DNA of 64,000 bases from Capitulum mitella (lineage: Eukaryota > Arthropoda > Thecostraca > Pollicipedomorpha > Pollicipedidae). How positions within the stretch are numbered: position 1 is the stretch's first letter; every line of letters starts with the position of its first letter. The notes beneath the pieces are model-generated. The model worked only from the letters and a program-made list of their open reading frames with translations, searched no databases and was not told where the DNA came from. The stretch covers positions 28,789,201-28,853,200 of the forward strand of contig CP099846.1 in assembly GCA_030062745.1 (NCBI GenBank), in the 5' to 3' direction. This document shows positions 5,755 to 58,800 of the stretch, piece after piece. The position numbers and the translations under genes are program-made.

Positions 5755-6155
5755 TCACGTCAGGTCATGTCATAGCTAGATACCAAAACGAAATGAAATT
5801 CAGCATTGTCTGTGGAAGATCGTTCAGTAGCAGCAGAGAGTAATTGTCGTTCCTAGTCAGAAGAAAAAAAATGTTTATCTCTCCAGACCTGGCTTGACCT
5901 TCACCCGATAATGAGCAGACGCGGCAGATTTAATTATCACGTGCCATTTCAGTTGTGTACTTGACGCAGTTAAGAATCTCAGCCAATAATTATCGTCCTT
6001 TGTCAGGAAGAATAATGCAGCCTTACCTACTTTGACATAGACTAACCTGACTGGATGCAAAGCAATTAAAGCATATTTGATCATCAGGATGTTGTACTAC
6101 CGTCCTCTTTGCCACATGGATCGAAACGGCTGCGAGTAAGTATCGATATTTGGCA
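5755..6155 (+). repeat. Dispersed repeat family D, copy 1
   Basis: This copy aligns base for base with 45165-45570 in the same orientation. Shared blocks include TCAGTAGCAGCAGAGAG, CCTGGCTTGA and CTTTGTCAGGAA. It carries about fourteen CpG sites, whereas the copy at 45 kb has none. No TIR or protein-coding content was recognised. Confidence 0.8.
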
Positions 6156-6210
6156 TGTAAATTAAAACCAATGTTTCACCTGACCTAGGTTTGCCGTGAC
6201 CCGGTGTTCT

Positions 6211-7436
6211 TTAACCCGTCCACAACCGGGGGGGAGGCAGTTGACCGCCCTCCCTGGGGTTTTTCTAGGACTGCGAGAGAACGAACAAACACAGAGCCAC
6301 GAATTTTTCTGTACCTTTTGCTCAATCATTTTTACACCTTGTGTCAACGTTTTGACCTCAGGCCAGATCAGGTGCCTGACCTAGGTCAGGTCAAACGGAC
6401 CTATGTCCAAAAATGTTTAGCGCCCTGAAACGTTTTTGGAAAACAACATATCACATTAATACTTTCAGGTATTAGTCATCTTGATAGATGCAATAAATCT
6501 GCTGAGATTTTGCGGAATTCTCCGGGGCATTGGCGTACGGTCAAGCCCATTTTTAAGACATGACGTCGCTTTTTCGGAAAATGACGGAATATTTTATAGC
6601 ATTTTTAGTGTGGAGTGAAGCAGACATCTGGTTACCGTCATTGGGCAAAGTATCAATGATTTCCGGCCATTGACCTGAGGTCAGGTCACGAATAACTGTA
6701 GTGAGCCAAAATGCATCACCGTCAAAATCAGCGATGAATTACTCAAAATGGGTAGGAAATGGCAGAACTGGCTTGCACAGACGTAAGTAATAGCAAGAAC
6801 CTCAAAAAGTTCCAAAAAAATTCATATTTTGGGAAACAGATAGGCTCTCGCGAATAAAGCTCCGCCAATTGTGTACATTAGTAACTAATGAATTTTTCCA
6901 AAACTTAAGCATGAAACACCATCACAAGAACCACTAAGATCAATAAAATTTACATGGATAGGCTTTTTCGCGAAAATAAAGGAACGCTAAAATTAGTTAC
7001 CGTTAACTTCTTACTGCGTACGACTGCGGCGCACGACGGCAGCCGGCGCGAAAATTCCTGTGTCCTTAAACTCAATGTTTCGACGTATATATTGAACAAA
7101 TCCGAGAAATTAGACGTGTATCGGTATTTGCGGACTTTTACTTGTGCGCTGTTGCCTTTACCTATCCGTTATTAGTCACAGTCCTTGAGATTCAGGCCGT
7201 TTCTCGGTCTCACGTAGTCGGCTATGAGAAAACATATATAGGCTGTAAATTGCTTACATATTACGTAAACCAAAAATTAAGACCAGTTTTGAGTTCTACT
7301 CGTCACAAGCTTTCCAAAGGTGTGCTTATTTTTACCGTGCGAGAAACCGTTCGTGAGTTAGAGGGGGGGAGGCGGCCAACTGCCCTACCCCCAGTCGGGC
7401 GTGATCGTCGCCAACCGACGGTCGTGCGCGGGTTAA
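6211..7436 (+). mobile_element. TTAA-flanked MITE, family A copy 1 (piggyBac-like ends)
   Basis: The element begins TTAACCCG (6211) and ends CGGGTTAA (ending 7436), i.e. inverted ends inside TTAA sites. TTAA target duplication and a terminal CCC are the hallmark of piggyBac elements, so a piggyBac-mobilised non-autonomous element is inferred. Subterminal GC-rich inverted blocks follow (GGCAGTTGACCGCC left, GGCGGCCAACTGCC right). The interior is non-coding, AT-rich and contains several AGGTCA half-sites, including TGACCTGAGGTCAGGTCA near 6672. Copies in the same window lie at 22173-23380 (reverse) and 24257-24900 (truncated). No transposase is encoded. Confidence 0.8.
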
Positions 7437-22172: not shown

Positions 22173-23380
22173 TTAACCCCGTTCGACATGCACGTCCGAC
22201 CGGGGGCGGTTGACCGCCCCCCTCTAACTCCCGAACGGTTGGTTGCACGATAAAAACAAACACACCGTTGGAAAGCTCGTGGTTAGTTGAGCTCGAAACT
22301 GACCTCGTTTTTAGTTTTGGATAATACGGAAGCCATTTACGCCTTACATATGTTTTCTCATAGTTATCTGGATCAGACCGAGAAACAGCCTGGATCTCAA
22401 GGGCTGTGACTAATAAAGTCTGAATGTAGGTACCAGCGGACAGGTAAAAGTCTGCAGATGCCGATACGCGTTAATTTCTCTGATTTGTTTAATATGCACG
22501 CGGAAACGCTGAGTTAAAAGCACGTCGATCTCCGCAACGCTGCACGGCGGGCGCTGCAGACGGACGCGGGATAGAATTATCGGGAACTAATTTTACGTCC
22601 TTTTATTTTCGCGAAATTTGTCTTTCCAAGTGTTTTTTTTTTCATCCTAGTGATTCCTGCGATGGTTTCTCGCGCTTAAATGTCAAAAAATTCAGTAGTT
22701 ATCAGTCTACACAATGGTGGAGCTTTATTCGCGAGAGACTGTTTATTTCCAAAATTTTCAGTTCTTTCAGACTTTTCCAACTTCTTGGTATAATTCACAA
22801 TTGTGCGAGCCAGCTCTGCCATTTTCTACCCGATCTGAGCCATTCATCACGGATTTTGGTGGCATTGCATATTGACTCATAATAGTTATTCGTGACCTGA
22901 CCTCGGGTTAGTGGTCGGAGGCCACTGAAACTTTGCCCATCGATGGCAAATGTGCGCCCGGATTTCCCAATACTTCAACTGTTGCAAAAAATCCGTCCAA
23001 TCCAATCCAATCCAAAAATGGAAAAAATGGCATGTGTTGAAACCGGACTTGGCCTTTGGTCAATGACCCGAACATACGTGAAAAATCCGAGGTAGCAGAT
23101 TATTGCATTTATCTAAACCTCCAACTCTTGAAAGTTTTATTGTGATATCATGTTTTGGGGGAAACTTGCAGGGAGCTAAACTTTTTTGAACATGGTTCTA
23201 TTTGACCTCACCTAAGCCAGACATCTTACTTGACCTGAGGTCAAGAATTTGCTACACGGTGCAAAGTAATCAAGCAAAAGGTACACAAAGTTTCGTGGCT
23301 CTGCCTTTTTTCGTTTTCTCGCAATCCCGAAAAAAAACTCAAGGGGCGGTCAACCGCCCTCCCAGTCGGGGCAGGGTTAA
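22173..23380 (-). mobile_element. TTAA-flanked MITE, family A copy 2 (reverse)
   Basis: This is a full-length inverted copy of the 6211-7436 element: TTAACCCC at 22173, GGGTTAA ending at 23380, 1.21 kb. Matching blocks in reverse order include the GGGGCGGTCAACCGCC subterminal palindrome (about 23343), the GACCTGACCTC half-site cluster (about 22897) and the TTCGCGAGAG block (about 22729). It carries no open reading frame of note. Confidence 0.85.
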
Positions 23381-24256
23381 CTTTCGCCTCGCAGTCGGCT
23401 GTTACCTGGCATTGCGCGACTGGGTGTAGGGGTCGGAGTATGTGCAACAAGACCTGCTTAGCACGGGCTCCGGTCCCTAACATCACCCCAACAAACCATT
23501 CGGATCACAATGTGGAAATGTGATATGGGCTTGACCGACGTAGCCTTCGCAATTAGTTTAACGTATCTAACAGAGTTATCCAGAACTGGTCAGATGGGTA
23601 GCTCTGCCTGTCTGTTGACGCACTCGTTTCAGATCGATAGACGCAGTATTTCTGGCTTATTTTTGTGCTGCGGGCTTGTAATATTTCAACCATTATATGA
23701 CATGATAACAGTGAGAGGTACGGTCACACGCGAAGTGTTTGCCACGTCTGTTTCATACTATGCGCCTCTCAGCCATTACATTGATTAATTTCAGTATACG
23801 TTTACTCATTTATTACGAAACTGAAATAACGGGCCGACCCTCGAGGGTCGTTAAGAATCTGTAGGTAAGTTAGACCTAGATCTGCCAATGCACCACTCCC
23901 TCCAAACATCTGTCGCTTAGTGCTTGCTTCATGTGGACACGAAGTGTCGCTACGTGAATGCGAATGCGTTTTCACCTTTTCACTCACCTCTGGGACAGTC
24001 GGCTTCGGTTCCTGCTCCGGCGGTCTCGATATCGAACAAGGATCTTGAGACGCGACGTGATATCTTTAAAAGAGACCAGGCAAACTTTTTGCGATGCGTT
24101 TCCATAGTGATCGCATATGGACACAATCCGTAATCGTGCCGCAGGATACGTTCCGCTGCTTAATAGCTCGAAACTGGAAACCCAGCTTTTCTGCTGGTCA
24201 AGATGAGAGTGCTCCGTCTGTCATCCGGGACATTCTGTAGATGAAGCCAATATCTA
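23381..24256. other. Intergenic between two MITE copies
   Basis: No gene or repeat recognised; open frames are short and without domains. Confidence 0.45.
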
Positions 24257-24900
24257 TTAACCCATCTCCGACTGGAGGGTCGCTTGACCGCCCCCTTGAG
24301 GTTTTTCCAAGATTGCGAGAGAATGAACGGACGCAGCGCCATAGAATTTCGTATATTTTTTGCTTCATAACTTTACGCCTTGTGTCAAAGTTTTGATTTC
24401 AGGTCATGTCGGATGTCTGACCTAGACCAGGTTAAATGGACCTATGTTTAAAAAAAGTTTAGCGCCCTTTAACTTTATTGGAAAACGTAACAATGAAATG
24501 TTCAGAGATTAAAGATCTTAATAGATGCAACAAATCTGCTATCTCCGATTTTTCGGAATTTTTGAGGTCGTTGACCTCAGGCGAACCCCATTTTCAAGAC
24601 AGGTCGTCGTTTTTTCGGAAATTGGCGGGATTTTCTTCATAGTGTTTTTAGTGTGGGGTGATCCAGGTATCCAGTTAACGCCAGTGAACAAAATACCAAT
24701 GACTTCCAGCCACTGACCTGAGGTCAGGTCGCGAATAACTGTCGAGCCCAAATGGACCGCCGTCAAAATCAGCGATGAGTTACTCACAACGGAGAGAAAA
24801 TGGCAGAACCGGCTCGCTCAGTAGCGAGTAATACGAAGAAGTTCAAGAAGTCCAAATGTATATAAATGCGATACATAAAATTTATTTCTGCAGCTCAGTA
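24257..24900 (+). mobile_element. TTAA-flanked MITE, family A copy 3 (right-truncated)
   Basis: Starts TTAACCCA and follows family A copy 1 closely for about 640 bp, including the TTGCGAGAGAA..., TTTAGCGCCC, TTTTTAGTGTGG and TGACCTGAGGTCAGGTC blocks. The right half and right terminus are missing. Confidence 0.8.
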
Positions 24901-40660: not shown

Positions 40661-43300
40661 CTGTTGTCTTTCTGTACGAGCTGCGATCCGTCTTTACTGT
40701 CCAGAACACCCTGCAAGTGTTCCCCGTCCCAGATGTGGAAAGACAGCTCACTTCATACCGTTGCCTGCGGTAGCGCTCTTAAATGACGTCATGTATTACC
40801 AGGTCCTTGAAACACGGATATACATTCGATGCGCTGTTTTGGTCCCCCAAAAGTGGGCGTCGCACCGAACGTATTTTGCTCGCCGCCCACGACAACCCCT
40901 ACGCTCTTTCGTACCGTTCAGTTCTCGATATGCATCGCTAGCGACGGTGACGCCGCCGATGGCGCCTCGTAAAACTACAATGAGGTCCGTTCGTTAGTGA
41001 AAGAGTGACCTATTAGCCGCGTATCCGAGCGCATTGACAGCATGTCTGTCTGAACCAGGATAATCAGAATTTGAGGTTCCTTCAATGGCCGTCTCTCACG
41101 AATATAGTTCGATCTCAGTTCGATTTCATGCTCCCGTCACACCAGTCACGGACCCGACGAGCCAACTGCTGCCACTTTGTTACATGTCAGCAAGTGGTGG
41201 TGAACAGACGCGGATTCGGCGAGCGCACAACAGCGATTGCCTTCTGTTCCCCGCGCGGTGGGGGGAGGGGGGGCGGCAGCGGTTCTTATTAGGACCACTG
41301 CTTGAACACCGGCCGATGCGCTGACGGGTGCCGGCCACATTTTTCGGTGCCCTGACGCCCGGGGCACATTGAGACGTGACCGAAATGAGGAGAGCCGATT
41401 ACAAGCGTGTCTGGCCGAGGCGTCCGCAGATGCGTCCGGCGTGTAAGGGCCGTATAAGGGCCCTCGCGTTCCCATGGGAGTGCGTTTGATCGATTAAACA
41501 TTTTGATTCGCCCAGTCACGCTGGTCCCACGTATACATAGAGAGAGTGGTAGTGGGGAGAGGTAAGAAAAGTTTCCAAATCAAATCTCCTCCTGTCAAAC
41601 CTCGCCTAACGAGCTGGGGGGAGTTAAACGACACGTTCTTAGGCAGTTTTTTTGGGGGGGAGGGGGACTGCGGCAATACAGCGTGAAATTTGGCATGGCT
41701 GACAATGCGTTTAATGTGCATGTTTAGAAGAAATATTGATCCAAGGTTTTCTCTGGTCAGCTACCAATAACGTCATCACTAAAGGTTTGCGGAAAGATTT
41801 TTCGCTAAGTGTCATTTTCTACTGTTTTAGGGCAAGGGGCATTCATAAACGTCACATGATGGATTTATGGAATTGGTTCAGAATGGTAGTCCATATACGA
41901 AAAGGTCACTTTAGATCGGCCAATGGGTTTTTCAAGCTCAAACAAAATGAACAACTTAAAATAGCCGTTTTTATTTAAGAACGTCTTTATATTAATTTTT
42001 GGCACTGAGCATGATAAAGGAGGATATTTTAGGCCTGCTTGGCCGCAAATGTGTCGTTTTCCCGGAAGATCGTCTTATTATAGCTCCAAGTATAAGGCTG
42101 ATCTAACTTAGGAGGTCACTGGTTGATCCGACGGGGTCGAACGGCATACCATTGGATTCCTTGGGCACCAAGCTATCGATTGCTTTTTGGACCCGTGGCG
42201 TTAGCTCAGTTAGGGGCCAAATGGCAGGGATGGGGGTGCCTACACCATCCACCTTGTCATCGGCTCGAATGAAAAGCCATTCCTTCCGGCAAGGGATAAA
42301 ACATGAACCGTTTTATATTGGGGCAGCCGAGGCGAAATCCCAATATGTGCCTCATTTTTTTCGGATCTCCACGATTAATGATGACAAAACGCTAAGTCTG
42401 CACCCGCCAACTCACTAGTGTGGAACCGCCAGCGTGTCGTCATACACCAGCTGAGAATAGGTCAAGGACGAATAGGGCATGTAAAATTCGCGGGGAATAG
42501 TTCCGGAACTCAGGCAGACGTAGAGTGTGTTCATCTGTTTAACTTCTAAAGGCCTTTATGAAATACTACAACGCAGGGGGCTTGGAATTGGAGGGGGCAG
42601 AGGGGTAGCTGCCCCTAACTCTAGGCAACGTCTATTAACCTTATAGTGGCGCATGGGGAGAAACGAGATAAAAATCATGTTTCCCTCTCATCTACACACA
42701 GGCTCTGTCTCTGCTGTTGCCACCAGCAATAGCAACACCGTTATTACATACAGCCGTATGACACAATTATTTGGGGTTGAATAGGGCATAGAAAAGAAAT
42801 TGAGTAAAATAAGGAGGCCATACCAGTATTATCAAATCATGCAAATATCACCGCCCAATCCGTCCGTACCTCTGAATCAGAATGACGGACTAGCTTGAAT
42901 GGCAATGAAAAACGAGTCTACACCTAGTGGATTTTAGTTCACAGTGCACCACTGGTGACGCTATCGTCGCCACATCTAGACTCATGAGTTGACGCTACCG
43001 ATACGTGAGTGGTCTGTGAGAGTGCGTGGGCGGCCGTGTCAGTTTAGTGAATCACTGAGGTAAATTTAACGCATTTTTTCGCTGAGAACATTTAGACCAT
43101 GTACGGCTAGAAAGCACTAGACGTGAGGTGTTTATGTCTACCGACAAGTTTCAAGGTTACAATGTGGCAATGGACAATGGACTTGTCCATTCACTGCAGA
43201 TTTTTTGAAGATTGTTGGAACAAAAGTGCCACTCGTCAGCATGGATCTTAACAGTACCATGGACCTAATACTTTTGTTTGTTGTGTTCGGCTTGTGTCCG
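40661..43300. other. Intergenic with a family G fragment
   Basis: 42596-42720 matches the right half of the foldback element at 4 kb (TAGCTGCCCC..., GGCGCATGGG, CACACAGG blocks). The GC-rich part near 41146-41475 gives long open frames on both strands without domains. No gene recognised. Confidence 0.45.
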
Positions 43301-45666
43301 AAATCTGGTATGATACTGGTCATATATTTTAAAACTCCATTTAAAATCCAGTTGTTTCACTCTTGGTGCCACACCCATCTTATGTTTCACCTTTTGGCTG
43401 ATGCTTTGGTTTTTCAACATTTGTGTGCTTGGCTGTTGAATCTTGTTCATCATGTCCACTGCACTGTTGAGAATATGTCCCATTTTGAAAATGTGGCAAC
43501 AGAATACAACAGTCAACAAAATGCACCTGCTTGGGATAAGCAGGTGTATGAGAGTGGCCATCCATGCATCTAGGTGCAGCAGTCATGTGCCTATGTAATC
43601 TGAATAAAGCCTACCCAAGTATTGGGCCTCAAACCCGCAAGTGAGCGATGCACGTACAAGGTTTGGTCCAAAGGTGCCAGGTTTTCTATTGAAATATAAA
43701 CACAATGATCTGTTATATAATAGAGTTAAGTAAAGTGCTTTACATTGCATTCATGTTTGGGTTACTCATTTTGCTTATAATCACATTTATATCATATCAC
43801 ATTCATACTTTCAAGAATGTGAGAAATACTAAAAAAATAAAATAAAAGAAGCATTAATCTTGGCATCATTTTTTTTTTTATAAAACTGATTTCTTCTTGT
43901 ACAGTGAATCCATTTTCATGGCTGAAACTGTGTGGTCAGTTTAAAAAATATGAAATTTGCTTCCACTTGTATATTTTTCATCCAAAGAGTGACAATGATG
44001 ACACACATTCCTGAAAATTGCCATTAGCCAGAACTGATCTTTTCTAGATATCTAAGGACTCCTTGATAACATAATTTGGCTCATATTTTCCAAACCTGCC
44101 ATTAGAAATATCAGGCCAAACTAAATTGCCTGGTGTATAGAAGGTTTTCCCAACATTGTCAAAATGATATTGTAAATACTGTTCCAAGATAATTTGTATA
44201 ATGTCTTTTGTCTTAGCTAGAAGAAAACCTATATTTTTGGTTCAATGTACATTTGTCTCTGGTGCATTCCCATCCCCTGGCATGTCCCTTACTACTTTTT
44301 TCCACTGGGATGTACTAACTTGGCATTTGCCCAAGTTTTTGCAAAATTGTTTTCTTTTCATTTTGCTTATACATGAGTTTGAATGCTGCAAAAAAGCACA
44401 TGATGCATCAGGATATTTATGACATTTCTTGTCCATTATCTTAAGGTATTTTGGATGCATATTTCATACATTCCATTTCCATTTCATACATACATACAAG
44501 TGCATGATGACATTCAGATGAGGAGTAGGGATCATCAGAATTTAAACTGCAGGATTTGCAATCATAGATTGCAGTCCTTTTTTAAGGATTGTGGGTGGGA
44601 TGAAATGTTTTTCAGATGATTGCATTGCAGATTGGATTGCACTTTTTCTGCAGTCCTTTTTGCAGTCCTTGCTCACTGCCATTTACTTACTATTTACTTT
44701 AACCTGGCACCACCTGAGGATGTCAAATAGGGCACCCCCAGTTTTTGTGAATAACTTCAGAACTGTTGGAGCCAGCCCATCCAGACTTTCAGTATCTGTT
44801 TCTCAATCAGTTTGACATCAAAACTATTTCCATGCTAGGTCAGGCCATGGAAATGTGATACCAGAAGTGAGCCCTTGCATGCATATTTTCACCTCTGGGT
44901 GGTGGGGTGAACATGTTTTGTTTTTTTTAATAATATTCACAAATATAATGTGTGAATTATTTGGATTTATGTAGAACACAGTATCCAAAAGGATATATGG
45001 CCATGAAACATCAACATTAGAGGTCATGCTAGGTCACATACATGATGACAGTTGGACTGATTTGCATTTTGGATGATAGATGTGGTTGCACTGACCTTCC
45101 CCATCTTTCAAGACAGCCAAACAAATCTATATACACCTCTTAGGAAGGCTCATCAAATGCATCACAAGGTCATGTCAGGGCACATCACAGATAGATGTGA
45201 AACAAAATTAAATATTGCATTTTGTATGGAAGATTATTCAGTAGCAGCAGAGAGCAATTAATGTTCCTAGTCAAAAAAAGGAAAATGATTATTTATCCTG
45301 ACCTGGCTTGAACTTGACCTAATGAAGAGCAGACAGAGCAAATTTGATTATCATGAGATGTCAGTTCAGTTATGTACTAAGTGCAGGCAAGCATCCCAGC
45401 AAGTAATTATCACACTTTGTCAGGAAAAGTAAGTGACCTTATCTGACCTGACTTATATGGACCTTGGCTGGATGAAAAGCAGGTAATGCAAAACCAATCA
45501 TCTGAAGGTTTCACTTCCATCTTTTGTTGCCACTTGGACCAAAATGGCTGCACATAAGGATGGATCTTTGTCAGGTAAAGTAAGACCAGTATTTTGTGTA
45601 ACTTGGGTTGATCTTGCCCCAACATTTTAATATATGTTGGCATACTTCTGATGCAGAAGATCATGA
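43300..45666. other. CpG-free block (three CpGs in 2.37 kb, none in 43655-45666)
   Basis: Reading every line, CG occurs at about 43636, 43646 and 43653 and then not at all until 45667. Flanking DNA has CpG in nearly every 60-base line. TG and CA are abundant inside. The block has no recognised gene. It includes a copy of repeat family D (45165-45570) whose CpG sites, visible in the copy at 5.8 kb, are mostly TG or CA here. This is the expected footprint of 5-methylcytosine deamination, but the completeness and sharp edges are unusual. Confidence 0.9.
45165..45570 (+). repeat. Dispersed repeat family D, copy 2 (CpG-free)
   Basis: Aligns with 5755-6155. Compared with that copy, ATCACGTG reads ATCATGAG, TATCGTCC reads TATCACAC, and AACGGCTGCGAG reads AATGGCTGCACA, i.e. 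CG has become TG or CA at most aligned sites. Confidence 0.8.
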
Positions 45667-47926
45667 CGTTTCATTTGATACCCACTTGAAGGCTGTAATA
45701 CCAGCATTGCCAATGATATAATGTACGAATTGATGTTAGTTTTTATGTGTTTTGCGTTTTTCGTGAGCTGTGAGGTCATCAGGCACGTGACCAGGATTAA
45801 CATAGCATTGCCTTAATCGCAAGACTGAGGGCTGTCGATTGGTGATAGGCCGGTTCAGATCCGAGTGTTAGATCCTAGATCCTGAGATAACTGGGGTGCC
45901 TTTTTGACACCCAGAGACGGTTGGGGTACAAAAAAGTGGACCTGCTGTGGATCTGTGTGTGTACAGTAGCTGTATGATGTTGGAAGAGTTCCTTCTCCCC
46001 CTACGTGTCAAAGAGTAGCCTTTATCGGACGCGCACAAGAGCGAATCCGAGTCAGCAGGCCGTTTGCCCAACACTCGCCGACCTGTTGCGGAGGTTAGGC
46101 CAGGGTCATCCTGCCAAAATTTGGCAATTTGACAAATACTGATCGATTTCATGCTTTTCGTTTGTCAGATTGTTGTACAATTTGGTTTGCACAATGTCCT
46201 ACGTGCGTGATATACGTAAGCGTAGTTTTAAATTTCTCGATACGGAAGATCAAAGGTCATGGCGCCACACCAGCAGTCGACCCTGCCATCCGGATCTGAC
46301 TTGCCCGTTCTTCGCATTTGCACGAAAGTGAGTCTGTCTGGTGTTCGTAAGCCTTTAAGCCAACTGAGACAATCTTAGTCGAGCATAGGGGGATTGGTGC
46401 ATAGGGGCCACATACGAGCAAAGATCAGCCTATCAGTGAAAGAGAAGAAGATGGGCACAACTTAAAAATCTCACAGAAGTGGTAACAAAACCCGATTCAG
46501 CGATCGGGAATCGGAACAAGTCTGCTTGTAAGACGAACGAGAATCCCGTCAATAACGCAACGTAGGGGCCTTTTCAAGGCCAGGCGAGTACATTAACCCC
46601 GACTGGCCTTGGATAACCTGTTTGCCTCGGACCATTTTTTTAGGGCGCTGATTCTGAATTTCACATGTGTTGTTAACGTAACGTAGCTTTTGTTCGTATC
46701 TCATTCACCACCTTGTAACTATTCAACATTCAGGGAATGCCGTCATGACCAAAATATCAACGTCCTCAAGCTGGCATTGAATAAACATGTGATGCTCGCG
46801 AATTCCGAGACGTGAACAATATATATGAAATTCGTGACCATTGCCCTAGAAAATGAATGGCCCGAGGCCATCACGTTATCCAAAATCAATTTAGGTCATT
46901 GACCTCAGTCGACCTTCAAAGGGCCCAATGCTCGACTACGATTGTCCCAGTTTGCTTACAGGCCTAAGAACACCCGAAAGGCCCACTTCCGTCCAAATGT
47001 GAAGAACGGGCATGCCACCTCTGAATGGCAGGGGTCGATTGGTAGTGGTATGTCATGACATCTGACCTTCCGTGCCAAGAAATTTAAAAGTGTAGCAGGC
47101 ATGCAGGACATCGTGCACACCAAATTGCAGAACAATCGAACAAACGGAATGCACGAAATCAGTCAGTATTCGTCGTATAGCCTCAGGGAATATTTCTCAA
47201 ACGCCTCTGGGCAACACTTCGTTCAGTATATCTGACACAGTTTCAGTTTGTCCAGAAACGTTTTTTGTCACGCTTATTTAAATACTTGGGGACATATTGT
47301 GGTACATTTTCGCGAAGATCACGATGAGCAGATATGGTTAAAGCTGAAAATGTAAATGTGATGTAGTCAGGTTTAAGGTCATCCCAAGGTCACAAATTAA
47401 AATGAACTTATTTGTGGAGGCTGGAATATTTCTCTTTCGAATGGCGCCAGTCGCACCTTCCTGTGACGGTGTGACACCGAGTTATGAGCTTTTGAATCAT
47501 GCTGTGTATGTATAAACCAGTGGCCTTTCACGATCCGTGACTTTGACCTCAGAGGTTATCTTGCACAAAATAATTCATGGCTAGGCATTTCTTGATCGGT
47601 ACTAGGAGCATACCAAATTTCATCAAAATCTAAACGGGTTCGATCAGTTCTTGTGCGATTCGACTTGGAATGCCTAAGATGTTAATTTCGAGGTTATTTA
47701 CACACCTCACTAGTTAAGTAAAATCTCGTCATGGGCGCAAAAGAACCTCTGCAGTCCGCACACCCTAAAACACCAATAAATAACAAAAATGGCTACGGCG
47801 TTGCGTCTAACACGTGTGCGGTTACCTGCTGACTGACGGTACCACTGTGTGCTGCCGTTGCAGCGCCTGCGGCCGTTCGGCCTGTGCTGACGGCGGACAG
47901 CGAGACGGGAGACAGCTCCGCCCACC
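45667..47926. other. Intergenic and 5' flank of the Shisa-like gene
   Basis: CpG returns to normal density at 45667. AGGTCA-type half-sites occur (for example GGTCATTGACCTCAGTCGACC near 46892: GGTCATTGACCT, then CAGTCGACC). A pyrimidine-AG acceptor-like site (GCCGTTGCAG, ending 47863) precedes the Shisa-like start, so a non-coding first exon may lie upstream. No other gene is seen. Confidence 0.45.
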
Positions 47927-50900
47927 ATGACCACGTGCACGCGCGAGAACATATTCGGCGTGACCAGCCGGTTCCGCTGTCCAGAGGCCGGCAGCCGGCC
48001 GGAGGACCGCTACTGCTGCGGCACCAAGACCGAGCGCCACTGCTGCAGCCAGGACCCGCTCGACGCCCTCTCGGGCGGCGGCGGCGGCTACGGCGGCGGC
48101 GGCGGGAGCCGTGGCACCTACGGAGGAGGAGGAGGAGGCGGGACTTATGGGGGAGGAGGAGGAGGCGGGACTTACGGGGGAGGAGGAAGCAGCGGCGGTG
48201 GGTCGAGAGGCGGTTATGGCGGAGGCGGCAGCGGCGGAAGAGGAACCGCCAGACATGATCCACAGCAGGTGTAAGTAACTCCGAGGCGGCACACATTACT
48301 CTGCTGGAAGTCTTTTTGCTTGATCTGTGTTGTAGTTTTGTTTCCGATTTTCGTGTCGCGTACGATGTATGGTGTGTCAGTGGCTTTGCATTCTTATCTC
48401 GCTTCGTTTATATTATAAAAGTGATGGAGAGGTTGACCCAGCCACGTTATACCTTTCCTGATGTATGTAAAATGAGGTATTCTCCAATACATGTAGGTCA
48501 TTTTATGATGTCACAGATGGTGATGGTCATTACAGGCACTCATTTACTTTTGCACGTGTTGTTTTCCTTCCCAAGTGTAATGGAAGCCTTTTTCCCTCAC
48601 ACCTCCGTATTTAAGCCCAAACCATCATTTGTCGTTGATAGCAGTTCCTAAACACCGTTGTTTTTCTCGTTTCTTAGTAGGGAGTGGCATTGCGTGCAAT
48701 TATATTATTGCCTCTCAAATGAGGACATTAACATAAGGTTCTGCGCCCCGCGGTGGATCGGGGCAGGAGCACTCCTGGTTACCCGCTCGGGAGGGAGGGG
48801 GAGGTAGATAGTTCAGTGACGGGCCGGAAAATCGCGAATGAATGGTGAACGCATTGCCATACAGTGTATTGTAGTATTACCTGTCACTTTCCGTTGGTGG
48901 TTTCTGTCCGTGATCCTCAGTATAATGGGCTTTCTTGTGTCGTCCTTGTCGTGATGCATTTCGCTCTGTGGGCCTTGCCACTCGTGAGCGTGTGTTCGTG
49001 TCTCACCTTCTCCGCGGTTCGTATTTAGTGTGGTGACTTTCGCGTGACGCGGCGCGGGCCGTGCGCGGCGCTGTTATGATAAATGTGGCGCGCGCCGGGG
49101 CAGGACGGAGCTGGCCTCCGGTCTGGCCAGCGGTCTGCTCTTCCTGACGCTGGTCGTCTGCTGCCTCTGCTGCGTCTGCTGCCCGTTCTGCCCGGTCAAC
49201 AAGCGACGGAAGAGGCGAGGTAATGGGTAATGGGTGACGCACGGCGCGGGGTGGGCCGAGTGGTGTGGGCTGCATCTGCGCCCGTCTCTGCAACTGGGGA
49301 GAACTGCGCGCGACAAACAAGAACGGTGGGTGGGACGCTAGAAGATTTTTGCTGTTGAATGTTTTATTTTCATCAGATTACTGTTTCCTTCACATGGCTT
49401 ACGTCTTGGCAGGCGAACAGTCCTACGTGTGCAAGTTCTTTGGGTAGTAGCATTGTGAATTTGACTCGGACGAAGATTGAGGTGCCGTGTAAGCATATCA
49501 ACTCCAGAATGTGATGCGCCGCCAGCTGGTGGAGGCGGAGGCGGAGGAGGCGGTGGCGGTATGCCGATGGGCCGCGTGGAGCCGCCGCCTCCGCAGCCGT
49601 CGCCGCAGCCGCCACCGAGCTACCCCCAAGCCAGGAGGAGGAGGCTATCCCCAGCCAGGAGGAGGAGGCTATCCCCAGCCAGGAGGAGGAGGCTATCCCC
49701 AGCCAGGAGGAGGAGGCTATCCTCAACCGGGCGGAGGTGGTTACCCCCAGCCAGGAGGAGGAGGATATCCTCAGCCTGGTGAGCCGACAGCGGGGTGAAT
49801 ATGTTCGGTGGAATCTAATCCGTCTTTTTTGTGCCTTTTGCACAATCTTGCTTCAGTTGGACGGCGGCCTGCTCTGTTTTCTGGAAGTTTGATGTTTGTC
49901 AGTCTTCTTGTGTCTTGCATTGTTTTTGCCGTTTTCATGTTGTAGGACTGTACGTGGCCTTGCCCCTATCGTTCTTCCACCGCGATGCCGGGCCCCAACA
50001 GCTGGGGTGGCGCACGGCGAAAGGCCGTGCATTTCCGGCCGCCCGACCGTCGTTTAGTCGTGTGCCCGGGCGACCGGCGGGTCCTGCGCGTGAGCTCCTG
50101 CCGACATATCTGACCGCCGGCCGTCCGCTGCAGGCGGCGGCTACCCGTCCTCTCCGCAGCCGCCCGGCTGGGCCCCCCCCGGCTCGCCCTCCGCCCCGCC
50201 CCCCTCCAGCGGCGGCGGCTGGGCCCCGCCCCCCTCCAGCGGCGGCTGGGCGCCCCCCGTGTCTGGCAGCGGCGGCGGCGGCGGCAGCAGCAATGGAGGA
50301 GGAGGCTGGTCGGCGCCCGCGGCGCCGCCTGCGGCGCCCTCCAGCGGCGGTGGCGGTGACTGGAGGAGCGACATCGACAAGATGATGGGGTGAGTGGGCC
50401 GCGCGCCTCGAGCGTTCGTGTCGGCGCGGTCCGGCTGTGGTGGCTCGTGTCTGCGGGGTTGGACTGGGATGGCTCGTGTCTGCGGGATTGGACTGGGATG
50501 GCTGGTGTCTGCGGGATTGGACTGGGATGGCTCGTGTCGGCGGGGTCGGGCTGCGGTGGCTCGTGTCGGCGGGATTGGACTGGGGTGGCTCGTGTCGGCG
50601 GGGTCGGGCTGCGGTGGCTCGTGTCGGCGGGGTTGGGCTGCGGTGGCTCGTGTCGGCGGGATTGGACTGGGGTGGCTCGTGTCGGCGGGGTTGGGCTGCG
50701 GTGGCTCGTGTCGGCGGGGTTGGGCTGCGGTGGCTCGTGTCGGCGGGGTTGGGCTGCGGTGGCTCGTGTCGGCGGGGTCGGGCTGCGGTGGCTCGTGTCG
50801 GCGGGGTTGGGCTGCGGTGGCTCGTGTCGGCGGGATTGGACTGGGGTTCGGCGGGGTCGGGCTGCGGTGGCTCGTGTCGGCGGGGTTGGGCTGCGGTGGC

Positions 50901-51915
50901 TCGTGTCGGCGGGGTTGGGCTGCGGTGGGGGGTGGGCTGTGGTGGCTCGTGTCGGCGGGGTCGGGCTGTGGTGGCTCGTGTCTGCGGGGTCGGGCTGTGG
51001 TGGCTCGTGTCGGCGGGGTTGGGCTGCGGTGGCTCGTGTCGGCGACGGAGGGCACGTCGGGATACCGCCGGCGAAGGGTGCGAGGTTAGCGAGGAACATG
51101 TTGACGTAAACTGATGCCGTGATCGTATGGTTCGGCCGGGGCTGTGCTGCGGGGGAGGGAGAGCTGGGCCTTCCGATGACTGGCATTGTCCTGCTCCCGG
51201 GATCATAGCATATTGTGTTTTTGCCCCTCCCATCAACGATGATGCTCGTCTCTCACGTCGAAGGTTAAGGCGTTTTGAGTTAGAGCTCTTGACGCTTTTT
51301 TGCATTTGTCAATTGAATTTGTCAGATTTAAGAGAAATTTGCGTTCTGATTCGACAAAGTTCACCGAGGAAGCTTTTACACAGACTTCCAGTTGTGTGTG
51401 TGTGCATCCATAAACTACACGATGTGAGTGTGATGAAAGTCTTTTTTTACTTTCAGTTTCGGTGACCCGGGGCAGAAGAAAGGAGGTGTGTGTTAGTGCT
51501 GCACTTGACAGTGAAGTAAAAACCTCGATACGGTCAAACGCGCAAATTAATCTGCGTCTGATGCGAATGCAGGATTCTTCAGTGACGCGTCCAACCTTTA
51601 TCTGTCGAAGACCTTGACGCATCCTTTGAGTGGTTGCCCGATTACCATACGTATATGTATTGGTATTTGATGCATACAGTGCTGTTGATTTCAAACAAAT
51701 TTGGGTATTTCGTTATCGCTTTGGGGTCGCTGGGAACTTTCAGGTTGACCTCCGGTCCCTGATTGTCTTTGACTTTGACAGTATCTCCCGTGGTTTTGCA
51801 AGGTATTTTCCTGGAGTGGGCGGCAGTGGGCAGAAAGGCAGTTTTGTGCACGAAACGGTCTAATTCTTCCTTTTGTCTTGCAGACCACCCGCCGCCGTAC
51901 AATCCCAACTTCTAG
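47927..51915 (+). CDS. Shisa-like single-pass membrane protein with PPPY tail, six exons
   Basis: Exons: 47927-48270, 49104-49219, 49508-49778, 50134-50389, 51457-51485, 51884-51915; all junctions are GT...AG and in phase. The start has a strong CCCACCATGA context with an in-frame stop upstream, so there is no signal peptide, as in the SHISAL2/FAM159 subgroup. Domains: Cys-rich N-terminus (CTRENIFG...FRCPEAG...YCCG...HCCSQ), Gly-rich linker, transmembrane segment (LASGLLFLTLVVCCLCCVCC) with a basic stop-transfer (NKRRKRR), GGGGYPQP repeats, Pro/Gly/Trp-rich region, and the C-terminus DHPPPYNPNF. The PPPY motif is a WW-domain ligand; Shisa-family proteins act in receptor trafficking, but the role here is not known. 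About 348 aa if one extra C in the run at 49623-49627 is discounted; otherwise exon 3 shifts frame. Alternatively a 76-nt intron (49559-49634) restores the frame. Confidence 0.85.
49632..49778 (+). repeat. In-exon 24-bp tandem repeat encoding GGGGYPQP
   Basis: About six 24-bp units encode Gly4-Tyr-Pro-Gln-Pro in exon 3 of the Shisa-like gene. Units differ mainly at synonymous positions (TAT/TAC, CCC/CCT), which supports selection on the protein and this reading frame. Confidence 0.85.
50430..51050. repeat. 29-bp GC-rich minisatellite in an intron of the Shisa-like gene
   Basis: About 21 units of a 29-bp repeat (GGCGGGGTTGGGCTGCGGTG followed by GCTCGTGTC) with TT/TC and CT/GG variants; the first few units differ most. 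It lies in the intron between exons 4 and 5. The unit has no stop codon in any frame on either strand, and 29 is not a multiple of three, so all six frames stay open across the array and any predicted proteins here are artefacts. Confidence 0.95.
51457..51485 (+). CDS. 29-nt micro-exon of the Shisa-like gene
   Basis: TTTACTTTCAG precedes 51457 and GTGTGT follows 51485. Joining exon 4 directly to the last exon gives the wrong frame. Inserting this exon contributes GFGDPGQKKG and restores the frame to DHPPPYNPNF-stop. Phase in 2, phase out 1, both matched exactly. Confidence 0.8.
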
Positions 51916-54365
51916 CGACGCTAGCGACGCCACTTCGGGGGCTTGCGAAGCTGCGGTGCCGTTCCCCCCGAGCGGGTTCGCCCGTGCGGCGCCGGCGCCG
52001 GCCGGCTCGCCCCTCCATCAGGTCACCGTGTGTTTCGAGGTCACCGGCGCCGAGCAGACGGCAGGCTCGGCCGCGGAGCCGTGCGGTGGCCGTCCGTGTG
52101 TCGTGCGGTCACCGGTCGTCTGAGCCGCTCCGTGTTGAAAGGTTCATCAGATGGGCGGTGCGCGCGTGGCTGGCGGCCAGCGCTGCGGCTGTGCCGCGGG
52201 GCTGAGGCAGCTGGAGGGCGTGGCGCTCGTATCGGCGGACCCTGCCGGTCCCGCTTGGTCGCAGGCGACTCTTCCGTTGTGAGATTGGTCGCGGTGTGCG
52301 GGTTAGCTCTGGTCTGGGTTGGATGGACGGTGTTCCTGGCGTCACTGGGGTGGGGGTGGGGATGTTGTTTTGCGCGCGTTGCCGGTCGGCTGGCGGGCCG
52401 AAAGCTGCGTTTCGGTGGCTTTGTCGTCATAGGTAACGGTGCCATTGTGAAGATATTTTTTGTCGTTCCATTCGATGTGCAACAGGTTCTCAAGTTCGTG
52501 TAGGATCCGGTACCTGAATGACGATTTTCTTTATTTCAGTTTGTAGATTCTCATGAAGATCTGTTCAGTTTTTGCAGTGAGTATATTGTAGCCCAGGCTC
52601 AAATTTGATCTGTTGGTCATAACTGCGATTTAGATGTGACGTGCGTTTTGGCGTTTTAATACTCACTGACGATACGCACAATGAGCAAAGCTATGTTATG
52701 TCGTAGGTTTGCGATACAAGTCATAATGCACTGCAGGTACTGTGAAGACATCGCGTCGTCATTTTCTGGCATGTCTTGGCCCGTTTTATGTATTAGGAAA
52801 CGTAAAGTTTATTTGCGATGAAGATTTGGTTAGGTTATTTTTTTTGGTTTTTTTTTAGGTTATTTAGGAACACCTTTAATGCTTTACTTGTGTCAGACTA
52901 ATGGAGCGGTTTGCTAGCTCTAACATTGTTCCTCAAGAACCGTGTTGCTGACTGTCTTGTCGTTGTCTGTTATTTCCCCGCGTTTCGTCCGGAGCGGTCA
53001 CATAGTGCAATGTGCCTGTCTTCAGTTCTGTGTGCTGAACGGCCTGTATTTCCGATCGCTTCCCCGACATAGCTGCGGCGAACACTGCTTTCTTAGGTGT
53101 GGTCGCCGGCCGGACTTGTGGATAGAGCACCGATGCTGTACATGCATTTACGTGCGGCACGTGGCGTAGGTTAGTGCCGCTGCTGCCTTGTGCGGCGGAC
53201 CGGCTCGACGGTGCCTTGTATTGGGTCTCCTGCTGCAGACACCGCGGTTAGTGGCGGCGCTATTTTTACACGTTTTTGGAGCCTGTTGCTGGAAGGTCTC
53301 TTTTGGATTTTAGTTGTGCACATTTGGAACTCGGCTGCCGTTTCGATCTAACACCCGCTTTCTGGTTATACTGCGTAACCAGAGAATCAAATACATTGGA
53401 ATCTCCCCACTGCGACTGAGTGACGTGTAGTTGTTACCATGTTTAGCGCGGGGTCCCCAGTCTGCGAACTACGTGATGAAATCGTCACAAGGAATGGCGT
53501 CCCACGGAATCCCTGGAAGGAGAGGATTAAGGCAGGATTACAAAATCACGAGAATGATTCCCTACGATGACCTTTAAAAACTCGTTTCGGTTTTTCCGTA
53601 GCTGGATAGCATACACGTGGCTTGATCGCTTCAAATGGCAGTGAGGGAAAAAAGTGGAAGCGTTACCCGCCATTAGGCCGTAACAACAGTAACCAGGCAC
53701 TGTCCAGCCATCACAAACGACGGTAGGCGTCCGGAAGCAGCGCTGGATGACGCACTTCACGCGGAGTACGCGGCAGGATCGCCTCAGCTTGCCTGCTATC
53801 CGCGGGACTGTGGTCGGAAACACAGCTCGCCTCCCGTGCGGCCAATCAATACAATGCGCCCCGCCCGGATTCGCCACTGTCATTGTTACAGCTGATGAGC
53901 GTCCTGAAGTGACGTTGAAGGTCGACATCGACATGAAGCACGTCTTCTACCACTGGCTATGACTAACTTTTTAATGGCCTAACATTTTTAGCTGACTTCG
54001 CCTGCTCCTAAACTCTGCACGAAATGTGGTTGTGCGTGTGTGTGTTTCACCCGTTGTGCATGTTCCCATTGTCTGACTTCGGGCACAAGAATAGCCCTGT
54101 TGGCCTTGGCCATGCATCGGGGATGGGCCCACGACGTAAAATAAATCAAATACTGCACTTGCACTGATTGCACCACATTCGTCCACGACTGGGGCCTTTC
54201 GTTACCGTGGCAATATTGGACGACTGGAATTCTTGTTTGGTATTGTTTGGAACAGTGCAAGGTTACATTTCAGACGCATGTCAGACGTTTCTGACCTGCC
54301 ACAACAACGGGGAACAGCTGACAGGTTAGTCGCACGTATGATCTGTGTGTGAATTTACGCTGACC
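51916..54365. other. 3' flank of Shisa-like gene and intergenic
   Basis: The first part is GC-rich and probably 3' UTR; no clear AATAAA signal was located near the stop. From about 52500 the sequence is less GC-rich with no recognised gene. The 135-codon minus-strand frame at 53934-53527 has no domain. Confidence 0.45.
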
Positions 54366-55831
54366 GCCTACATTGTAGGACTGATTACCTGTGATAGTCT
54401 GTGATTTTGCATTGGAGCAAATGGCTTCTGTAAGGGGGCTTTTGCAGATATTAATATTTTTATCTGGATTTGCCATTAAGTCGCCAACATGCTCCTGAGC
54501 CATTTTCAGGGATAGTACTTAACCTTTATATCATTCTCAGGGACCTTTAAATGGAGCTCTTTTGGCAGTTTATGCTGCAATGCATCCTGGTTCATGTGTT
54601 AGTGACAAAAGAGTTTTCTTGGAACATATCATTAGCACCATGCATGACCTACAGGATGAAAGCTGTAGACCAAAGCATTATTACTATTTTCACTTGTGTT
54701 TTTATGCATATTTTTTATCTGAGGTAGGGGGTGAGGTAATCTGAGTATAATTTTGGTTTCAAGTGCATTTTTCCTCACTCAGGCCTGACTTCAGAGTGGG
54801 TTAGTGGTGACAACAGCACATATGGGTATCCCTTAAGTTGGATCAAATTGGTTTCTGGTGATATGTTTTGGTGTTAAGATCAAACCTACATTTTTCATAC
54901 AGTCTATGTGTGCTGATTTTACCCAGTTTAGGGGTAAAATGAGTATATCAGCTTCATTGTTGAGTTCTTTGAAAGCTATGCACAGCCTGCTTTTCCTGAT
55001 AATATTGAAAATGGATAAAGTACCTTCATTAAACAGAAACTAAATATGGCTTCAAGACCCATTTTTTATTCAGCCAAGTTTCATTATGGAAATATGCAAG
55101 GAATGCAGTACTCTTCACCATCCAAGTTCCAACTGAAAACACAGCTGAGCTTCTTTTTCTTTTGAGCTTCACCTGTGGCTGTTTATTCACAACTATGGGA
55201 TGAGGAATCTTGATTATGTTAATATAATAAATCATATGTGAATACAACAGTGTAAAATGAGCCCATTCTACCCTAGTGCATTGTATCACATTCCACTATG
55301 GTAAACAAGTTTTGGGTTGAGTACATTCACTTGCACAAAAAGGAGCTCATTAACTAACATTTCATTTTTTTTATCAGCTTTTAAAAGTGCAGAAGAGTGT
55401 ACATACACAAATTTTATGGCCCTTTTTGCATTTGTGCAAATGCATGACAAGGTCAAGATCAAATTTAGCAAAGAGCACAGCCAGTGAATACAAACAAGCT
55501 TGTGGGATGTTATTGTCCTTTAACAGTTGTGTATGTACACAAAAAAACATGAAGCTTTTAAGTAAAAATGTTTTGATCAAATTTGATTCATATCCCTTGC
55601 ACTCATTTTGCCCCCTATACTCATAGTATCCCATCTTACCCTGTTTGTTTGTGAGAAAACCAGTGTGAGTTATGTTGACAGGTACATTTGTGCTTGCAGG
55701 GACTATTTGGAACCAGGAGTCCCTGCATTCCTGAGGTATTTGACCCAGTTGGTTGGCTTTCCAAAACAAAGCAAGAGGTTTCTGACAATGTTACAGCAGG
55801 CTACCTTGCCAGGCACAGTGACAGTGAACCA
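54366..55831. other. Second CpG-free block, running into PDE12 exon 1
   Basis: Only one CG (54482) occurs between 54366 and 55831; 54484-55831 (1.35 kb) has none. The block covers the likely promoter and first 44 coding bases of PDE12; CpG reappears at 55832 within the exon and is dense from about 56015 onward. It is AT-rich and full of TG/CA steps. No separate gene is recognised inside. Confidence 0.9.
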
Positions 55832-58800
55832 CGAGGATGGTGATGCCCAGGTGCAGCTTTCTTTCACCTACGCAGAGCCAGTGCTAAACTTTGAGCGGGT
55901 GTTCCACTTCAATCGCCCACCTCTGGAGGACGTAGGGGCCCTGTCGTCCAAGATCACCTCAAACCTAGAAAAATTCCTCAGCAAAAAGGTTCCAAAGAAG
56001 AAGAGGAAAAGCCCCTGATGGTGGGGAGGTGGAGGAGTTCGTCCTGCGGCCGCTGGTGCAGGTGCTGGTGGACGGCGAGCCGGCCTCGCCAGAGATGACC
56101 TGCCGCGAGGCGCTGGTGACGCGCGGCCGGCACGCTGCGCTGCGGGTCGGCCGCCGGCTGTACCGGCTCTGCGTGAACCCGCCGGCCGTGGTCGCGCTCG
56201 AGCTGCCCGCCCACCCGATGGCCGGCTTCCCGGTGTACCCGAGCCGGCTGCGGCTGTTGTTCGCCGCGCCGGCCGACAGCCGGCTGCGCTGGGAGCGAGA
56301 GCCGGCCGACGGCGCCGCCTGGCGGCCGGTCGGCGAGGACGCGACCTACGTGCCGACGGCTGCGGATGTCGGCCGCCGGCTGCGGCTCATCTGTGAGCCG
56401 GGCCGCGGCGAGGCGCGCGGCCGGCCGGTAGCGGTGCTCTCCGAGCCGGTGCAGGCCGGGCCCGGCCCCTGCCCGTTCGAGCAGCGGCACGCGTTTACCG
56501 GCGGGGTCGCCGAACCGGACAGGTGAGGCCCGTGCTCCGGCTGTCCGGATCTGCTGCCGCGGTCCGGCTGCCGTTGTTTCCGCCGTGATCTGCTGCGTGG
56601 ATCGGTGAGGTTTGTGCCTCATCTGCATGTGTTCCTGTTAGGGGTTGTCGTATTTTTGTTTACAATTTTTTATTTTGTGGCAGCCTGACATTTCTTGCAA
56701 GAACTTGCTTCTGATTCATCTGCTAGCTATTTGGCCACTTTCTGCACAGAGTGGCCGAAACTTTGTGTGTAGTTTATCTCGTAATGGCGTCTTTGGTTCG
56801 CCAGTTACCGGGTGGTGAGCTACAACATCCTGGCTGACCTTTACGCCGACTCGGACTACACCAGGACCGTGCTGCATCCGTACTGTCCGCCGTACGCGCT
56901 GCACATCGACTATCGCAAGCAGCTCATACTGAAGGAGCTCCTGGGTGAGAATCTGCTGTCGTCCGTCGGTATTAGTGCACACTGTGATAGTGCATCCTTT
57001 CTGATGACGTTCTGCCGTCCACAGGAGGAAACTGTATGTTGCCTGGATAAGCTGTATGGGGGATCAGTTTTCCTTTTTATCCACATACCCCGTGAACGAT
57101 ACGTGCAATCACGTGTGTCTTCGGGATTCACTTGCCCAGCCTGCATTGATGAGCTGCATATAGAACAAAAATCGGAACACGCTAAGTATAGCTTGGCAGA
57201 GCTTTTCTTCCATTGCACTTCGTCCCCTAAATACCCGTGATCTATATATCGTGGAACTCTGTTGTGAAAAAACGTGCGTTATCTCAGTAAGCAGGGAAAG
57301 GCTTTCATAAGTTCTTTTTCCTTCCCGACTATGAAACAGTGTGTTGCAAATAACTGTTTGCGATGTTACTTCGGTGATTGCCGATTGTTTCGTAATTTTG
57401 TCAGAAAAAGTGAAGCGTTTCCTTCTTTTGTTTTTAGGAAAGCGAGCTGCATTTAAGATTACCTTGTTCCGGTTCGATTTAGCGACGTTGTTGAGAGCAG
57501 TCGGATATTATACGCATTTGCAAGATCGCAGAATATGTAAAAGGCTGATTTTCTTCCTCTTACGAACGGTATTGCCGCCCTGCAAACATTTTCCTCTTCT
57601 GCAAATGGTGCATGTCACCTTTCGGTACTTCTGTTTATGAAAAAATATTGCTTTTGTTGTCAGTAGTCCGTTTGTTCGGTTTGTTCAGTCATTGGTTTGT
57701 TTTGGAAATGGATACCTCATTCTCAGATTGTGTGCGACAGGCTATAACGGCGACATCATTTGTCTGCAAGAAGTGGACAAGAAGGTGTTTGATGGCGATT
57801 TAGTCCCAAATCTGCGACCTACTGGTCTAGAAGGTGTCTTCACCAACAAAGGTGGTCAGGTTACAGAGGGCCTGGTGTGCTTCTACCGAAGTGATAAACT
57901 AAGGTGAGCCTTGTTACAGTGTTGCGAAGTGAGGAAGTTCACTTTAAGGGGAAGCTGGAAAGCCAGTGGTGGAATTATTTTTGTTCTTGAGGTTAGCGTG
58001 AGGTATTTATGGTAAGGAAGTTGTGGATTTCGATGCGTCTTGTGTGCAGGAGCATATTCAGGATTTTGCCAAGGAGGGGCCAGGACAGTCCTATCCCCCC
58101 ACTCCTCAGGACTGAAAACTTTTCGGATTTTGGCCACCCAAATCAAAGAAACTCTTATTTATTTTCATTTTTTGGTGCGTAAAGAAGTGCTAAACTTGGG
58201 ACTTCCAAGGGGGGGGGCATGACCTTGGTACCCTCGTCCCGCTGGCTGCGCCCCTGCTTGTGTGTTCTTCATATAGGTGATGTATCTTTAAAGGTAATTG
58301 TGCTCACATAAACGATGCCCTGGTTTGTCTTCTCTTTCAAGAGATGGACACTTATTTGGAAACCATTTGCTTGAAACACCCATGCTCGTCCTGCATCGCC
58401 GTTTCGGTGACATTTGCCAGGCATGCTCGGCGCCGCTAACTATTTATGAGCCCCCATTTTGGTTGCGTGGATTCCTCCGTTTTTTTTTTATGTGCACGTC
58501 TCTGACCGTGCCGGTTGCGTTTCGGCAGACTCGTGGAATCGGAGCGCGTCGTTCTGGGCGAGGTTTTCTCCCAAGATCCGCTGTTTGACGACATCGAACA
58601 GGCGTGCGCTGAGAACCCCCAGCTGCGGGAACGGCTGACGAAGCGGACTCAGGCGCTGCAGGTATGTCGCTGGATGCACGGCACGTGAACCGCGCCAGTG
58701 TGTGCAGGAGGGGAGAGATGGGGTAATTTGCGTAGGAGCAGGACGGTGGAGCTGCCGCCGTGGTGACTGAAATCATCAACGTTCGCCTTTTGTCGATACC

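Follow-up and report, generated by a model that had tools for sequence, protein, structure and literature searches.

Two blocks of near-total CpG loss lie in the window, the 64,000-nucleotide stretch of Capitulum mitella DNA analyzed here. We read them, with a probability of roughly 80%, as traces that mutation has left of two germline methylation domains with sharp limits, in an invertebrate whose genome is methylated in mosaic fashion. The phenomenon is known in kind; the completeness of the loss and the tightness of its edges are unusual.

Results

Two CpG-Empty Blocks

The window contains 3584 CpGs, with an observed/expected ratio (O/E) of 0.96. By its genes it is animal DNA, with a PDE12-like domain and a Shisa_N domain, and its CpG content suggests an invertebrate; it also holds a 7tm_1 piece (E 1.4e-8), reverse-transcriptase pieces (best E 5.5e-14) and a DDE_1 piece scoring under its curated cut-off. 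There are 820 stop-free pieces of 45 amino acids or more in the window. The Pfam searches covered all 117 listed pieces of 85 amino acids or more before 36 kb and, from 36 kb on, 135 of the 177 listed that reach 62 amino acids; with these length limits they address the longer exons.

It had been claimed that positions 43655 to 45666 hold not one CpG where dozens would be expected, and the counts agree. This core of block A (2012 bp) has 0 CpG against 64.6 expected from its own C and G content, and the minimum in 5000 mononucleotide shuffles was 43. The neighboring CpGs, at 43653 and 45667, leave a gap of 2014 bp. The core has a counterpart in the second empty block, B (Table 1). Outside both blocks, CpG O/E is 0.99 and GC content 0.49. 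When gaps of all 16 dinucleotides in the window were ranked by length scaled by local expectation, CG took the first two places (66.7 for block A and 48.3 for 54482-55832). The third-ranked CG gap (13.9) lies at 43299-43636, and the top gaps of other dinucleotides were CC with 27.9 (a 29-bp tandem array), AA with 20.1 (microsatellites) and TT with 14.5. Tandem repeats as a cause of the emptiness found no support, none with a score of 50 or more being reported in block A or B.

Table 1. Coordinates of the depleted domains, the repeat pair and the candidate exons (positions in the window).
Feature	Position	Strand	Remarks
CpG-depleted domain A	43300..45666	.	3 CpGs in 2367 bp, all at 43636-43653
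Three-CpG cluster within domain A	43636..43654	.	CpGs at 43636, 43646, 43653
CpG-free domain B	54483..55831	.	0 CpG in 1349 bp; 47.8 expected
Repeat copy in domain A	45170..45594	+	0 CpG; 15.1 expected
Control repeat copy, outside any depleted domain	5755..6176	+	73% identical; 15 CpG, 17.3 expected
Candidate coding exon 1 (putative Shisa-like gene)	43259..43307	+	Donor CTG/GTATGA at 43308; tentative
Exon with Shisa_N domain	47901..48274	+	Shisa_N E 9.2e-6; 3' end provisional; tentative
Candidate coding exon 1, PDE12-like gene	54278..54324	+	ATG at 54278; donor CAG/GTTAGT at 54325
Exon 2, PDE12-like gene	55700..56522	+	PDE12-like_N E 1.8e-14; PDB 4z0v E 3.1e-22

Edges of the Blocks

The edges are sharp, as first described, except that 43655 lies too far right as the left limit of block A: 43300-43635 is likewise without CpG, and the real edge is at about 43300. 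Domain A thus includes a cluster of three CpGs inside 18 bp (P 1.6e-4 that three points placed at random in 2367 bp would lie so close). This surviving cluster may be a site under protection, a recent insertion, or the place where two domains meet. An AATAAA motif (43603) and the inverted repeat CCCAAgtaTTGGG (43614) stand shortly before these CpGs, and 43603-43654 is possibly a protected site.

A two-state HMM of CpG relative to expectation was fitted to locate the empty segments. It gained about 90 log units over one state, its low state holding 0.003 of the expected CpG and the other 0.98. Empty segments were placed at 43318-43616 (0 CpG, 12.5 expected), 43677-45650 (0, 65.2 expected) and 54491-55820 (0, 47.3 expected). 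A further stretch, beginning at 55958 and reaching at least to 56000, the limit of the scan, is uncertain. The 5-95% posterior spans of the edges were 43301-43391 (left) and 45589-45666 (right) for block A, and 54369-54553 (left) and 55780-55831 (right) for block B, an uncertainty of about 50-90 bp at three edges and 185 bp at the left edge of B. CpGs had been said to occur on either side of block A, and its 300-bp flanks do contain 11 and 10 of them (13.8 and 14.8 expected); those of block B contain 15 and 20 (18.2 and 27.1 expected).

A rival origin would be a chimeric assembly, or the insertion of DNA from a foreign genome poor in CpG. The blocks are indeed AT-richer than their surroundings (GC 0.37-0.38 against 0.49). 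However, the repeat in block A has a second copy elsewhere in the window, and the right edge of B is crossed by an open reading frame that leads into the PDE12-like gene. The longest words shared between edges, sought as terminal repeats or target-site duplications, were 6-8 bases, inside the 95% limits of 8-9 in shuffled sequence. Comparisons of block A with phages and of block B with plasmids gave no match. We rate a foreign or chimeric origin as extremely improbable.

CpG Loss to TG and CA

CG is the sole strongly depleted dinucleotide in both blocks; the next most depleted, TC, has an O/E of 0.90 in A and 0.77 in B against 0.98 outside. The excess of TG and CA that decay of methylated CpG would leave is present. 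TG reaches 1.48 in A and 1.34 in B (1.09 outside), and CA reaches 1.64 and 1.66 (1.14 outside). When just enough TG and CA were turned back into CG to match outside levels, CG O/E became 1.14 in A and 1.01 in B, compared with 0.99 in the rest of the window. CA reversions slightly exceeded TG reversions (102 against 72 pooled, P 0.028; A alone, P 0.30; B alone, P 0.027).

The original prediction also raised a process comparable in outcome to RIP. Classical RIP acts on repeats or duplicated DNA and converts CpA to TpA. Fungal RIP and the blocks are alike in C-to-T loss confined to bounded blocks. They differ in that here only CpG is hit, unique DNA is affected too and CA is enriched. The classical form is contradicted by this enrichment and by TA, which at 0.65-0.70 in the blocks shows no rise over the 0.73 found outside. 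Restriction to repeats does not fit either, since the 1588 bp of block A outside its repeat are as empty as the repeat part (0 CpG against 49.5 expected).

A Repeat Pair as Internal Control

A repeat present once inside block A and once elsewhere in the window (Table 1) offers an internal control. At the 15 CpG sites of the outside copy, the block copy reads TG five times, CA six times, TA twice, GA once, GG once and CG never, so that 11 of the 15 are TG or CA. GC pairs were unchanged between the copies at 13 of 20 sites (CG versus GC, Fisher 5.9e-5), and other pairs were also often unchanged (CA 23/33, TG 15/29, TA 15/28, AC 9/21). The contrast of 15 CpGs with none makes loss inside the block far likelier than gain outside it; with two copies, the direction of single changes is unproven. 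Because 11 of the 15 outside-copy CpGs appear as TG or CA in the block copy, it is most likely that CpGs decayed in place, a reading that the pair strongly supports.

The copies also differ at many non-CpG sites, as old copies would, and the end of the repeat does not coincide with the end of block A. No further copy of this repeat with E below 0.5 was found in the window beyond the pair, and a BLAST search of block B against the window (E 0.05) gave no match outside the two blocks. The stretches 6211-7403 and 22191-24856 hold several diverged members of one repeat family (69-75% identity), one of them directly adjoining the control copy.

The repeat pair bears on a further alternative, that the sequence itself was generated wrongly by miscalls at methylated CpGs during sequencing or basecalling. 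A one-base frame break near 56013 in the PDE12-like exon, maybe an assembly error, would agree with it. The two copies differ at many sites other than CpG, however (73% identity), both TG and CA are present, and two lower-GC blocks with sharp edges would not be expected from miscalls. An old repeat common to the block and the window, together with an open frame across the right edge of B, makes the artefact considered in the original prediction very improbable.

Block B and the PDE12-Like Gene

Block B appears to lie inside a gene, as supported by homology and reading phase. It takes up the larger part of intron 1 in the PDE12-like gene and ends 132 bp inside exon 2. Among GT sites in 54150-54520, the donor at 54325 scores highest, and its phase matches exon 2; the acceptor before 55700 is equaled or beaten by 9% of AG sites (splice matrices were built from textbook frequencies). 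Homology of the PDE12-like gene starts downstream of the right edge of B, the start of exon 2 being given by the open frame. In this model the edge falls within what is probably an exon, in a gene that continues across it. The predicted intron 1 has 5 CpGs against 46.8 expected, all at its start, and the first 132 bases of exon 2 have none against 7.8 expected. After base 132, exon 2 has 6 CpGs against 12.1 expected, followed by a domain-coding part with 86 against 75.8.

This distribution is informative on whether selection against CpG, for example in RNA, could take the place of mutation. Selection would likewise favor changes of CG to TG or CA and could reach zero. Yet most of the block sequence falls in probable introns, which are absent from mature RNA, and the CpG-rich exon part adjoining B was spared. 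We therefore regard selection as improbable.

The PDE12-like exon contains a one-base frame shift near 56013 (55969-56015) with no obvious splice site, which may reflect an intron, an assembly error or a broken gene. Downstream in the same gene, the 300 bp at 57821-58120 have a CpG O/E of 0.32, a possible weaker depleted patch.

Block A and a Putative Shisa-Like Gene

Block A perhaps starts at the donor of a candidate first exon of a Shisa-like gene, a tentative model. The exon candidate encodes a hydrophobic sequence, signal-peptide-like by eye. Its donor at 43308, where domain A begins, is the top-scoring GT in 43100-43450, and the candidate joins the Shisa exon at 47901 in phase. The acceptor at 47901 is weak (score -5.4, with 39% of AG sites as good). 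Because donors were sought after the edges were known, the match between donor and edge is no more than suggestive. CpG is normal in the remainder of the putative intron (45667-47900; 112 found, 117.5 expected). Four single pieces in or at block A (43127-43570, 43268-43582, 45413-45670 and 44168-44419) gave no match in Pfam. A candidate alternative exon for the gene at block A, from about 45655, was noticed on reading the sequence. Between block A and the Shisa exon, 46123-47182 forms an inverted repeat whose arms, each about 260 bp long, are 76% identical, possibly a foldback element.

Completeness of the Loss

Simulations were run against the pooled blocks (3 CpGs in 3716 bp, O/E 0.023, TG 1.43, CA 1.65), assuming neutral evolution. 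With a vertebrate-like CpG hypermutability of 8-15, long evolution left an O/E of 0.21, about nine times that seen, in agreement with the earlier remark that even heavily methylated vertebrate DNA keeps a fraction of its CpGs. Under the first priors, matches appeared only at a CpG ratio of 39 or more (292 of 9000 runs accepted, 5% quantile 66), and under wider priors at 17 or more (437 of 14000 runs accepted, 5% quantile about 60). The prior on this ratio ends at 300, so medians are uninformative, and the blocks were picked for their emptiness, which pushes the estimated ratio upward. Strong AT bias combined with a ratio of 8-15 still left a 5% quantile of 4 simulated CpGs and a median of 9, and for this reason an ordinary CpG ratio is disfavored in these models. 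Near-total loss by passive decay alone seems to need either an unusually high ratio or strong AT bias.

The near-complete loss and the ratio that the simulations call for could point to active CpG-directed mutation, by a deaminase or by a CpG-targeting system akin to RIP, with or without methylation, and sharp edges would fit as well. On the other hand, unique DNA is hit and CA is enriched, unlike in classical RIP, and ordinary methylation decay yields identical products. The two processes cannot be distinguished from sequence alone. We know of no CpG-directed mutation process in animal germlines, and consider an active process unlikely. A related possibility, doubtful as it stands but deserving some weight, is that some genes of this animal have 5' domains in which hypermutation is directed at CpG in the germline and, relative to background, exceeds the vertebrate strength several-fold (a ratio of about 50 or more), through near-absent repair of methylated CpG or active deamination. 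It would include near-complete erasure, edges that can be placed to about 50-190 bases, and one small protected CpG cluster, a combination that we hold as tentatively as the hypermutation itself.

Discussion

Germline methylation limited to the 5' part of genes explains why only CpG is strongly hit, why both strands and both unique and repeat DNA are affected, and why the DNA on either side is CpG-normal. Of the origins first proposed, a long-lived bounded germline methylation domain is the best explanation, in view of the TG/CA route, the loss in unique and repeat DNA, and one gene supported by homology. From these patterns we infer methylation as the agent, the gene models, and 5' targeting through elongation-linked chromatin marks. 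Each domain would probably start at or just past exon 1 of an expressed gene and cover the first 1.4-2.4 kb of the gene body, chiefly intron 1. Its CpGs would be methylated in the germline across generations under the guidance of such marks, and deamination of 5-methylcytosine to T would turn CG into TG or CA until nearly none remained. CpGs outside the domains would be unmethylated and hence kept. Counting against this explanation, and unlike the pattern in Daphnia and most arthropods studied, the loss is heaviest in intron 1 and leaves exon 2 untouched beyond its first 132 bp.

The blocks resemble the methylated genes of low CpG O/E in invertebrates with mosaic methylation. Both cover part of the genome, show the TG/CA signature, lie in genes (probably so for block B) and leave their surroundings unaffected. 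In contrast to such genes, the loss here is near-complete, falls mostly in intron 1 and forms tight blocks. The following comparisons draw on partial texts of the papers cited. The nearest parallel in them is Eurytemora carolleeae, in which historical gene-body methylation is associated with coding sequences whose CpG o/e falls as low as 0.09 in a set of 80 candidate genes and, for some genes, with depletion worded as “complete or nearly complete” (PMC11706791). The Eurytemora depletion is genome-wide (mean 0.5, GC 33.0%; PMC11706791), whereas the present window is CpG-normal outside the blocks, at 49% GC. Among the literature matches listed, likewise partial texts, there was no report of multi-kb, wholly CpG-free intron-1 blocks in an otherwise CpG-normal genome.

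Regarding position, excerpts on Daphnia describe methylation rising sharply from exon 1, peaking in exons 2-3 and dropping from exon 4, with introns near zero and exons 2-4 high (PMC6097596). The blocks resemble Daphnia methylation in their probable position in the 5' part of genes; they differ in that intron 1 is covered, with exon 2 reached for no more than its first 132 bp. Honeybee mCpG is concentrated at the 5' end (cited in an excerpt of PMC8857917), and germline remethylation in Nematostella is described in part of PMC13345969 as quicker at the 5' end, with H3K79me2/3. As for introns, the available portion of PMC7343188 gives exon methylation above intron methylation in most arthropods studied and little exon-intron difference in two crustaceans, and that of PMC8857917 gives intron methylation above exon methylation in three cnidarians.

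If such blocks are general in the genome, they would amount to a map of germline methylation obtained from sequence only, in which limits could be placed to within tens or a few hundred bases. A map of this kind would make the start and stop of invertebrate 5' methylation testable, and also their cause, be it the exon-1 junction, H3K79 or H3K36 methylation, or nucleosomes. The completeness of the loss is also relevant to the mutation rate of methylated CpG in invertebrates. In this regard, locus-resolved CpG values are wanted, because the CpG excess in an amphioxus pedigree study was only about twofold genome-wide, probably owing to low methylation (PMC12862219, partial text).

Other Features of the Window

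No RNA families or tRNAs were found in the window (ARAGORN with the bacterial code). The 29-bp tandem array comprises about 22 copies at 50416-51044. Within 50431-51049 (619 bases, + strand) there are 16 A and one CC, and neither CA nor AG occurs.
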